From assembly GCA_016196035.1 (NCBI GenBank), contig JACPYM010000010.1, positions 1 through 64,000 of the forward strand: a DNA stretch of 64,000 nucleotides. The letters run 5' to 3'. This stretch comes from Acidobacteriota bacterium (lineage in GTDB: Bacteria > Acidobacteriota > Blastocatellia > RBC074). Positions 39,313-43,645 of this stretch are shown piece by piece (the stretch's first letter is position 1; each line of letters starts with the position of its first letter). The translations under genes and the position numbers were made by a program. Under the pieces are notes generated by a model, which searched no databases, was not told where the DNA came from, and was given only the letters and a program-made list of their open reading frames with translations.

Positions 39313-39657
39313 ACTTCCTCCCTGCCGAGAAAACAGGTTGCGAACACAGACAGCCCGCGCGCGCCTGCAAAAGCGGACTTGCCCAAGATGGATGATGAGA
39401 TGCGCAAGCGGGAGTTGGCGCCCACGCGCGTTGGGTTGTGTGAAGTTTGCGGGAAGTGTTTGCGCATGTCTGCCGCTCAGACACGCGCGCTGAAAAACAG
39501 TTCACCGCGCCCAGTTGGAATTTCAGTTGGCGCTTGGTTGAACAGCTTCTATCGGCCCGATGTGGTTTGAACAATCGAGCAGACGCTTCTTGCATGGCTT
39601 TTGTTCCGAGCGGTGGAAATTGGTGGTGAGGGGCAGAACGTATAGCGAACCTAAATC
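39313..39657. other. Spacer upstream of the DUF6569 gene
   Basis: No gene or clear signal is seen beyond the promoter-side region of the minus-strand gene; the sequence has no convincing coding frame. Confidence 0.4.
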
Positions 39658-39724
39658 GGTTGTGGAACAAGATGGTATCTTGTTCCGCTGAATTAGGAAA
39701 AAGATACCATCTTGTTCCACAACC
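39658..39724. repeat. 24-bp inverted repeat whose arms are themselves palindromic
   Basis: Arms 39658-39681 and 39701-39724 are perfect complements with a 19-base loop. The left arm carries the start of GGAACAAGATGGTATCTTGTTCC (a near-perfect palindrome at 39664-39686), so alternative cruciforms are possible. Confidence 0.8.
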
Positions 39725-39828
39725 CAATCACATTTCCCATAGCGTTGTATGGTCGTGACGTGTAGCGGCAAGCTGATTTTAGCCCGGTGTTTCAAAGCTT
39801 TGTCATTACCTAAACCTTGCACGATTTC

Positions 39829-40063
39829 AGCCCGCGAACGCGGGCGGCAGCATAAAGCCTGGGGTGAAGGCGTTAGCCGAAACCCCAGGTCGTGCGCAAA
39901 ATTGAATTTTCCAGCCCACGAAGTGGGCGACAGACATTGATTGGCTGGCGACGCTCTGCCGCCCGCGTTCGCGGGCTTAGCTCATAATCGCCAATGTTCC
40001 CAGGGTTCCGCGCGCTGGCGCGCTGCACCCTGGGCTTTATGCTGACGCCCGCATTCGCGGGCT
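39829..40063. repeat. REP-like palindrome cluster
   Basis: Four short GC-rich palindromes of the AGCCCGCGAACGCGGGC type lie at 39829-39850, 39912-39933, 39957-39977 and 40043-40063. The first and last are the outer ends of two larger copies (39829-39889 and about 40000-40063) in opposite orientation, sharing GCATAAAGCC and a CCTGGGG/CCCCAGG hairpin. This is the layout of a BIME-type element. No RAYT transposase is in the window. Confidence 0.78.
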
Positions 40064-40184
40064 AAAAACCAAGGCGCACGTTTCGCGCATAAGTTTGGGT
40101 AACGACAAGGCATTGAAACATCCGGCTACAATCAGCCGCCGCGCTGTGGCGAAGCAGTCAAGCCCGCCTTCCATTTTGCACACG

Positions 40185-41624
40185 TTATTCCGCCAGCCAC
40201 CGCAGCGCCGCCGCTTCGTCTTGTTCGATGGCGAGTTCGACGGCGCGTTTGGCGGATTCAAGGATTGAATTGGATTGCTGCCGTAAGGCGAATGACTGTT
40301 GGATCATTTTGCTGATTCGCGCCTGCAAATCGCTAGTTGCGGACGATGGCGCGTAAACCAGAAAACGGCCAATTTGATGCGGGTAAAGTTCCAATTGCCC
40401 GGAAGAGCCGCACTGATATTTTTCGCTCTGCATTTGCCCGGCAATAGAGTTGAGGTAGAGCATCAGATAGTACGGATCGCAAAGTTCGTGGCTGACTCGG
40501 ATCATGGTTACGTGATTATCCGCCACGGCTGGCAAGTCGTGATCGTAGATTGAGGCGCGCCCTAGTGTGCCTCGCCCTGTGCCGTTGATAAGCACATCGT
40601 CGCGTTGCAAACGGCCCTTGCTGGTTTGGGTGGTTTGGTAAAACTCCAGACTGGTGCATTCGGATTCGTCTAGTAAAACGCCGTGAGGCCGAACAGCTTT
40701 GCTGGCGATGACGAAGACCTTGCCGCCTTCGACGAACTCAGGTTGCACGCCGCGATGGATCTCTTCGCGGCAAAGAGTCAGCAACTCGACCGCTCCTTTC
40801 TTGCTCAACCGGATTGCCAGTTCTTGATGGCGCGGCTCGTAAAATTCAGCGTCGAGCCGTTCACCATTGGTGAATACTTCTTTGAACGATTTGATCGCGC
40901 TCTGTTCGTCCGGCGGCTGCCAGTCGCGCAAGCCCAGTTCCGCCAGCAGCAGGCGTTCGGCGTCGGCGTAGAGGGCTTGGCTTTGTACCAGTTTCTGATG
41001 GGCGGCTTTGAATACTTGTTCAACTCGAGTTTGAAAGCCTTCTGATTGAATCGGAATTAATAGCTTTTCGAGTTGCCAGATAAACGTATGTTGTTGAACG
41101 CTCCCGACTGGCAAGCGCCTCATCTGCGCTTTGCCATGCTCGCTACATAGAAAAGTACAAAGGAAGTACGGATTTAGACCTGAGGATGTCGTGATCTTTG
41201 CAATGTCTTGATTGGAATTAACAGGGTAATGCCAATCGTTCATTGCAACCGCCGCATTGCCCACTGTACCGGACATTGTAAGCAAGACCATTCCCGGTCG
41301 GACTTCAGATTTCCAAAGTAACGCGTTTGCAGCTTCGTCTATGTAAAGGCAATCGTTGAAGTCAACGACTCCATCTTTGATATTTTGCCCGCGTAAGAAA
41401 GGGGTTCCGTTTTCAAGGTAGTCAATCTCATTGCAGAGGGAATAGGCTCCAAAGCTCTTGATACTTTTACGCAAGCCCAAGAGATAAGACCAAGGCTTGC
41501 TCTTAATGAGTTTTTCATTCGCAAGAAATTCTTTCTGGTAGTAGTCGCTGTCGAGCCTAAGCACATCATTTTCACGCAAAACTTCACTCAACCTCATTTC
41601 AGCAACTTCTAGCCCGTCCAACAA
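40185..41624 (-). CDS. Restriction-modification specificity subunit (S subunit)
   Basis: A 479-residue protein with two target-recognition halves, each followed by a helical spacer. PFLRGQNIKDGVV and MVLLTMSGTVGNAAV mark the first half; RGVQPEFVEGGKVFVIASKAV and DDVLINGTGRGTLGRASIY mark the second. Helices rich in Leu/Gln lie at about 205-235 and at the C-terminus. It would direct the upstream methylase to a bipartite DNA site. The first codon is uncertain: family members begin with (P)FDEAKYKALLDGLE, which is present just upstream in frame but lacks a start codon, so TTG at 41624 or a frameshift from the methylase gene is needed. Confidence 0.82.
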   Translation of the reverse strand: MLDGLEVAEMRLSEVLRENDVLRLDSDYYQKEFLANEKLIKSKPWSYLLGLRKSIKSFGAYSLCNEIDYLENGTPFLRGQNIKDGVVDFNDCLYIDEAANALLWKSEVRPGMVLLTMSGTVGNAAVAMNDWHYPVNSNQDIAKITTSSGLNPYFLCTFLCSEHGKAQMRRLPVGSVQQHTFIWQLEKLLIPIQSEGFQTRVEQVFKAAHQKLVQSQALYADAERLLLAELGLRDWQPPDEQSAIKSFKEVFTNGERLDAEFYEPRHQELAIRLSKKGAVELLTLCREEIHRGVQPEFVEGGKVFVIASKAVRPHGVLLDESECTSLEFYQTTQTSKGRLQRDDVLINGTGRGTLGRASIYDHDLPAVADNHVTMIRVSHELCDPYYLMLYLNSIAGQMQSEKYQCGSSGQLELYPHQIGRFLVYAPSSATSDLQARISKMIQQSFALRQQSNSILESAKRAVELAIEQDEAAALRWLAE

Positions 41625-41653
41625 AGCCTTGTACTTCGCTTCATCAAACGGGC

Positions 41654-43045
41654 CTACCGAAAAAAAGAGAGCTTTTCCTTCTTGGCAAACTCGATGAAGG
41701 CCTCGGCAATGCCGTCTTGCGTCTTGCCGTCAGTGTTGAACAGGTCGTGCTCCACAATCGGGTGCTGGTAGTCGTCGAGCAGCCGCGCGCCGTTGCGCGT
41801 CTCATAAATCTTCTCGCCCGAGTTGTCCTTGCCCGGTTTGCGCTGGGTGGCGAAGAAGATGTTGTAATCGTCACGGCGCGGGCAATAGCTACCGGATTGC
41901 TTATCGTCATTCCACTTCTGCACAAAGAGCACGCTAGTTTTGGTGCCGGTGTGCGGTTTGAAGGTGTTGCCGTGCAGCCCGACAACGGCCAGGATGCGGC
42001 AGCGTTCGGCGATGAATTCGCGGATGCGTTTGTCCGAAGAGTTATTGAAACGGCCTTGCGGCAACACGACCGCCATGCGCCCGCCGGGTTTCAGGAAATC
42101 CAGATTGCGTTCGATAAACAGGATGTCGCGCCCGACGGCGGATTCATTCTTGCCGTTGCCCTTGCGCCCCAATTCATATTTCGCCAGCATCCGCGTCTCT
42201 TTGATGTCACCTGCGAACGGCGGATTGGCGAGCAGCACGTCGAATTGAAAATCGCGGTAGCCGGTTTTGTCGCCGCGCAATCGCTTCAACCGTTTGAAGC
42301 CTTCGTTGTAGGTGTCGTTCCAATCCTCTTCGTCGGTGCGCTCTTCCCAGCGTTCGTAATCGAGCGTGTTCAAATGGAGCACGTTGGTCTGGCCGTCGCC
42401 CGCAATCAGGTTGAGCGTGCGCGCAACGCGGACGCTCTTCTCGTCAAAATCAATCGCAAAGACTTTCTCGTTGACGTACTTCTCGCAACGGCGCGGCTTC
42501 TTTTCGGCGGTGAACAAGTGGCTGGGTTCCTTGCCAAGATCAGCGTAAATCTGTTTCCAAACGTGAAAGATGCTGTGGACAGGGAAGCCCGACGAACCGG
42601 CGGCGGTGTCAATCAGGTATTCGTGCTCCTGTGGGTTGAGCATCTTCACGCACATATCAATCACGTAACGCGGCGTGAAATACTGACCCTTCTCGCACTT
42701 CGACGATTTGTTGACCAAGTATTCAAAGGCTTCGTCAATGACTTCCAGATTGGAGTTGAAGAACTTGACGTTTTGCAGCGAGGCGATGCAAACCGACAGA
42801 TGCGAACGAGTCAGCGCGATCTTGGTATCGGGTGAAAAGACGCCCTGCCATTCCTGCTTGGCCTCTTCAAACAAGGTCTGAATCTTCTCGCGCAACTGCG
42901 CCTCGCTCTGGCCGGTGTTGCGGAATTCGAGCAAGCGTTTCGCGTCGCGCGTGCCTTCGTATTCGTCATACAGCTTGGTAAAGATCAGCTTGAAGACCTC
43001 TTCAAACACGTCCACGCCCGCGTTGGCTAAAACCTCATCCTCCAT
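41654..43045 (-). CDS. N-6 adenine DNA methylase, C-terminal half of an interrupted nuclease-methylase gene
   Basis: 463 residues from the first available ATG. It has an HsdM-type helical N-domain, YFTPRYVIDMCVKML, an AdoMet motif I variant (DTAAGSSGFP) and the adenine-specific NPPF motif (LLANPPFAGD). The same frame continues upstream as QFRIADLIAHDKLTTEGKS to a TAA at 43124-43126, beyond which the nuclease domain lies in frame. It is followed by the S subunit gene. The last codons lie on a T7 run (41660-41666). A stand-alone methylase could still be made if translation restarts at 43045. Confidence 0.8.
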   Translation of the reverse strand: MEDEVLANAGVDVFEEVFKLIFTKLYDEYEGTRDAKRLLEFRNTGQSEAQLREKIQTLFEEAKQEWQGVFSPDTKIALTRSHLSVCIASLQNVKFFNSNLEVIDEAFEYLVNKSSKCEKGQYFTPRYVIDMCVKMLNPQEHEYLIDTAAGSSGFPVHSIFHVWKQIYADLGKEPSHLFTAEKKPRRCEKYVNEKVFAIDFDEKSVRVARTLNLIAGDGQTNVLHLNTLDYERWEERTDEEDWNDTYNEGFKRLKRLRGDKTGYRDFQFDVLLANPPFAGDIKETRMLAKYELGRKGNGKNESAVGRDILFIERNLDFLKPGGRMAVVLPQGRFNNSSDKRIREFIAERCRILAVVGLHGNTFKPHTGTKTSVLFVQKWNDDKQSGSYCPRRDDYNIFFATQRKPGKDNSGEKIYETRNGARLLDDYQHPIVEHDLFNTDGKTQDGIAEAFIEFAKKEKLSFFR

Positions 43046-43123
43046 TTCCAGAATCAGGTCGCACAGCGATTTGCCCTCAGTCGTCAGCTTGTCGTGTGCA
43101 ATCAGATCAGCGATGCGGAACTG

Positions 43124-43645
43124 TTAGTTGAGGATGTCGGCCAAGGTTTGCTTGGCCTTCGGCAGGTCGGTCAGGTCTTCAAAGAAGTTTGGGTCTTTGC
43201 GGTGGTAATAGGAAATCTGCCCGCCGTTCGTCCACACGCCGATGGGCGCGCCCGTCGCGTGGCAATACGATTTGAGCTGATCCTTGCCCTCTTTCAGCTT
43301 CGGCTTTTTGAGTTCGATGATGATGTAAGCCGAAGTCGGATGATCTTTGTCGAGGATGACAATGTCGGCTTTCTTCTTGTCCGCGCCCATCTGCACCGGC
43401 CATTCGACCGCCAGCCGGTCTTTTGCGTAGCCGTAGTCTTTGACCAAACGGCGCAAATAAAGCTGGCGCACAATCTCTTCCGGCGTCAACTTCAATTCCT
43501 TGCCGCGCACCAGACAGGGAACGAACTCAGCAGGCTTGCCCTTGAACTCTTTGACGATGATCGAAGTTTCAAAGGCTTTGATTTCGGTATCGGTGAACAG
43601 TGTGAGCGCGTAGTTCGACTCTTTGAGCAATTGACGATATTCCAT
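43124..43645 (-). CDS. HsdR N-terminal-type nuclease domain, severed from the methylase by a stop codon
   Basis: The 173-residue product matches the HSDR_N_2 domain. KADIVIL and YIIIELKKP supply the Asp and Glu-x-Lys of a PD-(D/E)xK nuclease. It stops at TAA 43124-43126, and the very next codons read on in the same frame into the methylase at 43045 (distance from start to start is exactly 200 codons). The undamaged protein would have about 664 residues, the nuclease-methylase layout of BcgI-type (type IIB) enzymes. No type I helicase subunit is present in the locus. Confidence 0.8.
   Translation of the reverse strand: MEYRQLLKESNYALTLFTDTEIKAFETSIIVKEFKGKPAEFVPCLVRGKELKLTPEEIVRQLYLRRLVKDYGYAKDRLAVEWPVQMGADKKKADIVILDKDHPTSAYIIIELKKPKLKEGKDQLKSYCHATGAPIGVWTNGGQISYYHRKDPNFFEDLTDLPKAKQTLADILN

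Follow-up and report, generated by a model that had tools for sequence, protein, structure and literature searches.

A nuclease–methylase gene with its specificity region in the −1 frame

The locus described here lies on the minus strand of a 64,000-nucleotide (nt) stretch of an Acidobacteriota bacterium (assembly GCA_016196035.1, contig JACPYM010000010.1, positions 1 to 64,000; hereafter, the window). It encodes a predicted restriction–modification system in which a nuclease and an N6-adenine methylase share one frame (together, RM), followed by a DNA specificity region (S) in the −1 frame. A preliminary description had read it as a BcgI-like nuclease–methylase gene, split by one in-frame TAA and accompanied by a separate S subunit. 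Our analysis points instead to a conserved signal at the RM/S junction, which very probably directs programmed −1 ribosomal frameshifting. In the order in which they are read, the features are as follows.

43127–43645, minus strand: nuclease frame of 173 codons, from the ATG at 43645 to the TAA
43124–43126, minus strand: in-frame TAA between nuclease and methylase, at a position where 74 of 74 aligned relatives lack a stop
41657–43123, minus strand: linker and N6-adenine methylase of RM, in the frame of the nuclease; the ATG at 43045 within it is a conserved methionine
41676–41680, minus strand: Shine–Dalgarno-like AAGGA, 9 nt upstream of the heptamer, a weak candidate stimulator
41660–41666, minus strand: slippery heptamer T TTT TTT, in phase with the methylase frame
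40185–41660, minus strand: S region of 491 codons plus stop, read at −1 from the slip onwards
41654–41656, minus strand: zero-frame RM stop TAG, 3 nt past the heptamer
41611–41654, minus strand: hairpin with arms at 41641–41654 and 41611–41624, the GCCC arm beginning 6 nt past the heptamer

Much of the preliminary description was borne out. Reading of the minus strand agrees that the nuclease (start 43645) and the methylase (ATG 43045) share a frame with the TAA alone between them; beyond the TAA this frame remains open, through the internal ATG at 43045, down to the TAG, and the read-through product of 662 residues plus two stops fits the proposed size of about 664. That the halves form one interrupted gene is supported by the PADLOC model PDLC03034 (672 amino acids), which matches both collinearly (8–176 and 208–670) and is matched end to end by intact relatives; the window halves are therefore not a chance alignment. 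Spacing between nuclease and methylase is equal in nearly all loci. The nuclease matches PF13588 (HSDR_N_2, E 9.8e-29) and the methylase PF02384 (N6_Mtase, E 7.9e-30). A model of full-length RM was poor (mean predicted local distance difference test score, pLDDT, 51.8) and was set aside in favour of the nuclease domain alone (39 sequences, pLDDT 91.1), whose best structural match is the nuclease domain of BsaXI (Z 11.3, 146 residues, root mean square deviation 3.5), followed by BpuSI and then an HsdR fragment. The proposed PD-(D/E)xK fold agrees with this match and with the retention of D94, E111 and K113; the window departs from the family at 1 of 46 conserved nuclease columns. For the RM profile, the best solved structure is RM.BsaXI, with both domains in order. 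Intact relatives carry the PD-(D/E)xK nuclease and the N6-adenine methylase in one polypeptide, a chain that the TAA breaks in the window.

The S region matches NCBIfam NF047740 (MAD5) over residues 20–467, as well as several PADLOC Specificity_I models. On the question of two target recognition domains, both halves of the 479-residue S open reading frame (ORF) match Specificity_I, and Pfam scores one Methylase_S stretch only. No HsdR was found in 9 of the largest of 66 ORFs flanking the window locus, and none is annotated beside the copies in Escherichia coli and Klebsiella; one fused relative (L052) has a helicase-related gene about 3 kb upstream. The BcgI-like architecture was thus half right, in that RM plus S without HsdR in those nine ORFs held up and the separate S subunit did not: S lies at −1 to the methylase and would be entered by a shift out of that frame, there being no ATG or GTG in the S frame near the methylase end. 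The shift site sits at the very edge of the coordinates given in the preliminary description, which did not note it. These comparisons identify the locus as a putative Type IIB-like RM gene followed by S in the −1 frame, and sequence and structural models indicate that the family works like a predicted Type IIB RM plus S enzyme, with putative cleavage on both sides. Membership of MADS was considered and rejected: MAD2 is the likeness of the methylase, at 278 bits, and MAD5 that of S, at 140 bits, but both scores lie far under the curated NCBIfam cut-offs (720 and 400 bits).

A slippery heptamer ends the methylase frame

We scanned named species genomes, obtained 512 relatives and kept the best 80 (67–80% identity); three plasmid records brought these to 83 loci and the window to 84 entries. 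S is split from RM by frame in 55 entries and fused in frame in 25, and four (L054, L065, L098 and L104) are neither or incomplete. Split or fused members occur in at least nine named phyla: Acidobacteriota, Cyanobacteriota, Bacteroidota, Bacillota, Pseudomonadota, Spirochaetota, Verrucomicrobiota, Kiritimatiellota and Ignavibacteriota.

In the window, a mechanically called S ORF begins at TTG 41622–41624, and the S frame is open upstream of it (SVGPFDEAKYKALLDGLEV, which matches relatives). The combination that marks programmed −1 frameshifting, an in-phase heptamer of the form X XXY YYZ with a −1 frame downstream, was found at the methylase end in 53 of the 55 split entries, as TTTTTTT (30), TTTTTTC (6), GGGAAAG (15) or GGGAAAA (2). 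In the rest of these methylases, 176 of 26,276 codon positions carry such a heptamer. The distance from the end of the heptamer to the methylase stop is 0 or 3 nt in 51 of 53 loci, and 27 and 21 nt in the other two (L053 and L117). Conservation extends to the base that opens the heptamer. The preceding codon is AGT in 30 loci of the T class and GGT in two, with GAT, CCT, CAT and TCT making up the rest; the G class has GTG (13), GCG (2), CCG and TTG. The encoded amino acid therefore differs between loci (S, G, D, P or H; V, A, P or L) and the opening base is constant, being kept in 53 of 53 against 7.7 of 53 expected from gene-specific synonymous choice. PMC4066793 places G_GG.A_AA.G in the top three heptamers by efficiency measured in E. 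coli, and reports better shifting when the second codon keeps to a single base class (for example, UUY or AAR).

A covarying hairpin and coding selection on the −1 frame

The same paper places the structure that accompanies −1 frameshifting about 5–8 nt after the heptamer. Such a structure is present in the split loci, where a GCCC-like 5′ arm begins exactly 6 nt beyond the heptamer in 53 of 53 and the helix covaries. The window hairpin (−25.9 kcal/mol) is more stable than dinucleotide shuffles of 41600–41668 (z −3.48) and than synonymous recodings (z −2.22). In a 48-row alignment, made without L072, L077 and L119 (which have an insertion) or L082 and L083 (in which the arm-placing motif was unmatched), 96.9% of the cells of a 14-pair helix are paired and 28 double-sided changes are seen. 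Of 500 shuffles, none equalled the pairing or the covariation score, and versions of the helix slid out of register paired at no more than 63.5%; the count of pairs with double-sided changes (3) was not above the shuffles (247 of 500). Across the split loci the native RNA is more stable than recodings that hold the −1 protein constant (mean z −3.99; 52 of 53 below 5%), compared with a mean z of −0.24 in 212 control windows.

The hairpin region also behaves as coding sequence in the −1 frame. Summed over pairs, single-base codon differences in that frame are synonymous in 4600 cases and non-synonymous in 2073, and stops are found in 0 of 48 loci, against 22 of 48 and 42 of 48 in the other two frames. 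Ahead of a conserved PF motif there is no start codon in 48 of 53 loci, and TTG or GTG stands at the slip in the other five. These patterns indicate that the −1 frame after the slip is under protein-coding selection, and together the comparisons show a conserved frameshift cassette at the RM/S junction, made up of in-phase heptamer, methylase stop, 6-nt spacing and covarying hairpin.

Fused relatives mirror the split arrangement

In fused genes the zero frame encodes RM-S, and the signal is still there. T TTT TTT is kept in 24 of 24 scored fused genes, and in 23 of them a TGA or TAA stop follows directly in the −1 frame, against a background of 31.5%; in the remaining one (L067) the −1 stop comes only after two codons. 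One further fused gene (L068) fell outside the scripted score, and has the T7 run followed by a codon that yields a −1 stop. The hairpin is retained as well (mean z −3.3; z below −2 in 21 of 25), with three double-sided changes among the 20 of 25 rows that could be aligned, L052, L059, L081, L086 and L122 lying outside the search pattern. In two fused genes (L081 and L122) the hairpin after T7 occupies the same place and is unlike that of other members in sequence, as if replaced. Mapped on the tree, the fused state takes three changes; the well supported branches require no fewer than three origins of the fused state and no fewer than three of the G class.

We then held out 24 loci found later (viral contigs, further genomes and a phage record), which are partly non-independent in that L136 and L137 look alike and L153 resembles L097. 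All 16 close split loci among them carry the heptamer (15 by script and L155 by eye). Five more distant ones (L148, L149, L150, L156 and L158; 55–60% identity) have no heptamer, and S begins at an ATG just past the methylase stop. L141 has neither heptamer nor ATG, and L157 ends at a contig end.

Programmed frameshifting is the probable explanation of the junction

The best explanation of these observations, in which we have high confidence, is that programmed −1 ribosomal frameshifting makes RM and RM-S in a fixed ratio from one gene. Most ribosomes would end after the methylase and release RM; a fraction, impeded by the hairpin, would move back by one base at T TTT TTT and continue into S, giving an RM-S fusion. 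One RM-S and one free RM would then supply an (RM)2S composition, which is that given for BsaXI in PMC11997821. An engineered EcoKI methylase–S fusion required extra free HsdM in vitro (PMC3510504). In fused relatives the roles would be reversed, the zero frame yielding RM-S and a −1 shift ending at once to yield RM. It is also highly likely that a whole subfamily of restriction–modification systems, present in at least nine named phyla, relies on such frameshifting to fix how much RM and RM-S one gene makes; its two mirror-image gene forms would have switched at least three times, and a covalently fused S could then still assemble as (RM)2S.

Two other accounts of the junction have to be weighed. 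S could be an ordinary downstream gene expressed by coupling, with re-initiation at TTG 41622–41624 and a hairpin that hides this start until the methylase has been translated. Database annotation of the Klebsiella and E. coli copies does begin S at a TTG, and in 35 of 53 loci the first start is a TTG about 12 codons past the slip. However, the codons ahead of the TTG show coding selection when read at −1, in two loci (L110 and L124) the S frame lacks any ATG, GTG or TTG around the junction, and coupling leaves unexplained both the in-phase heptamers and the −1 stops of the fused genes; moreover, the five relatives in which S does start at an ATG have no heptamer. We consider coupling very unlikely. 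Alternatively, slippage of RNA polymerase, or phase variation of the DNA, on the T7 run could restore the S frame. Runs of T7 to T8 are prone to both, and transcript slippage is used by Thermus dnaX (PMC5009743), but 17 of the 53 loci have G GGA AAR, which is no homopolymer, T TTT TTC is also present (6 loci), and strict codon phase and hairpin spacing suit ribosomal slippage. The G GGA AAR class argues against phase variation or transcript slippage as a general mechanism, and we regard this account as highly improbable.

Several points weigh against programmed frameshifting itself. RM and RM-S are predicted products, and in the window genome the upstream TAA may silence the cassette altogether. 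Loci share ancestry, so the heptamer and hairpin counts are non-independent trials. In two split loci (L115 and L123) S lies at +1, with a shorter T run and no heptamer, and one held-out locus (L140) has a nearby ATG as well as the heptamer. The Shine–Dalgarno-like element may be at best a weak stimulator: in the T class the mean longest match is 4.7 where 3.9 is expected, a modest enrichment, and in the G class, at 3.5 for an expected 3.7, there is none. As for L115 and L123, they are either broken or use another kind of shift.

The in-frame TAA is absent from aligned relatives

In an alignment of 75 rows (the window and 74 relatives), no relative has a stop at the TAA column, which instead holds E (53), I (14), A (2), D (2), Q (1), V (1) or K (1). 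Because 0 of 74 relatives carry it, the TAA reads as an apparent lone nonsense change or assembly error in a Type IIB-like gene, and not as a family trait. The preliminary description had named relatives with two separate genes and an added start as the finding that would overturn it; this arrangement, too, is rejected, as no aligned relative shows it and the ATG at 43045 is a conserved methionine in relatives and therefore no added start. The window nuclease is conserved, and its methylase branch (0.38) is ordinary beside those of its neighbours on the tree (0.31 and 0.37); the lesion is therefore recent, or an assembly error. Within the window genome (G000) no second copy was seen, further matches being only weak (E 6.7e-8 or worse), and one same-genus genome (73% complete) gave no match. 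Most likely, the TAA removes or cripples the fused nuclease.

The split could still be functional, either with separate nuclease and methylase proteins, the latter from ATG 43045, or by read-through of the stop. The base right after the TAA is C, as had been noted, the nuclease retains its conserved residues, and two relatives (L064 and L079) have an open methylase-S without a nuclease half. Suppression found no support, though, and the TAA is found in none of the 74 relatives, which carry ATG 43045 as a conserved methionine; there is also no start codon between the TAA and this ATG, so a methylase begun there would be without the linker residues, and no clear Shine–Dalgarno sequence lies upstream. 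A functional split is very unlikely. That the TAA is a base-calling or assembly error, the gene being intact in the organism, is a tangible possibility, although not the favoured one: the assembly is in 139 contigs, and apart from this single stop within its frame the gene is well conserved. Against this, different lesions have hit the nuclease half in 6 of the 77 relatives with enough upstream sequence (a count biased upward, because loci were picked by methylase match), and a real loss in the window is therefore plausible.

In these six (L061, L071, L077, L079, L088 and L133) the nuclease half is broken by stops, frame changes or replacement and the methylase is open. L064 and L079, both cyanobacterial, have no homologous nuclease half, having lost it near the place of the window TAA, and their open fused methylase-S genes are possible natural methylase-only forms; L064 lies near a contig end.

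Neighbouring repeats and recent copies

Just downstream of S, the window holds imperfect inverted repeats with arms of 45–46 nt (39641–39741 and 39825–40067). Three of 5426 E. coli genomes and a Klebsiella plasmid share a copy that is identical over 2046 bases (L053, L146 and matches H31–H33); it has recently been mobile, and the L146 copy adjoins conjugation genes. Polaribacter sp. MSW5 has two neighbouring copies on one contig (L132 and L133), one of them with a frame change in the nuclease half.

Relation to known systems

The window family resembles the BsaXI/BcgI group (Type IIB) in having nuclease and methylase in one chain, an S part and no HsdR found nearby, and BsaXI is the best solved match for both RM domains. 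Our comparison was made with BsaXI only, and the likeness to BcgI is presumed. The family differs from this group in that S has no start of its own and lies at −1, downstream of a frameshift signal. A parallel for the signal is dnaX (tau and gamma), where, according to PMC5009743, shifting to −1 yields the short product in E. coli and seemingly the long one in some other bacteria. Both have a heptamer and a 3′ hairpin, both come in two gene orientations, and RM/S, like dnaX, would give a short and a long product from one message; RM/S differs in protein family, in lacking a strong Shine–Dalgarno stimulator and in its heptamers, which are T TTT TTY or G GGA AAR. The engineered EcoKI HsdM–HsdS protein (PMC3510504) resembles RM-S in joining methylase and S in one chain and in being active with extra free HsdM, but was made by mutation, has a separate HsdR and lacks a frameshift signal; in RM/S, unlike the EcoKI fusion, the gene itself would specify both free and fused forms. 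We found no report of methylase–S frameshifting in restriction systems in the open-licence literature, which is no proof of absence; PMC2824730 and PMC6211672 concern other matters.

On this reading, gene callers divide what is one RM/S expression unit into two genes, and the annotated start of S is probably wrong throughout the family. Restriction enzymes must balance their cutting, methylating and recognition parts, and a fused methylase-S requires a free methylase partner, as reported for the engineered EcoKI fusion (PMC3510504). If our reading is correct, a frameshift signal that sets this balance from a single transcript would be a novel means of achieving it, and these loci would add a new class to the cellular genes that use programmed frameshifting.
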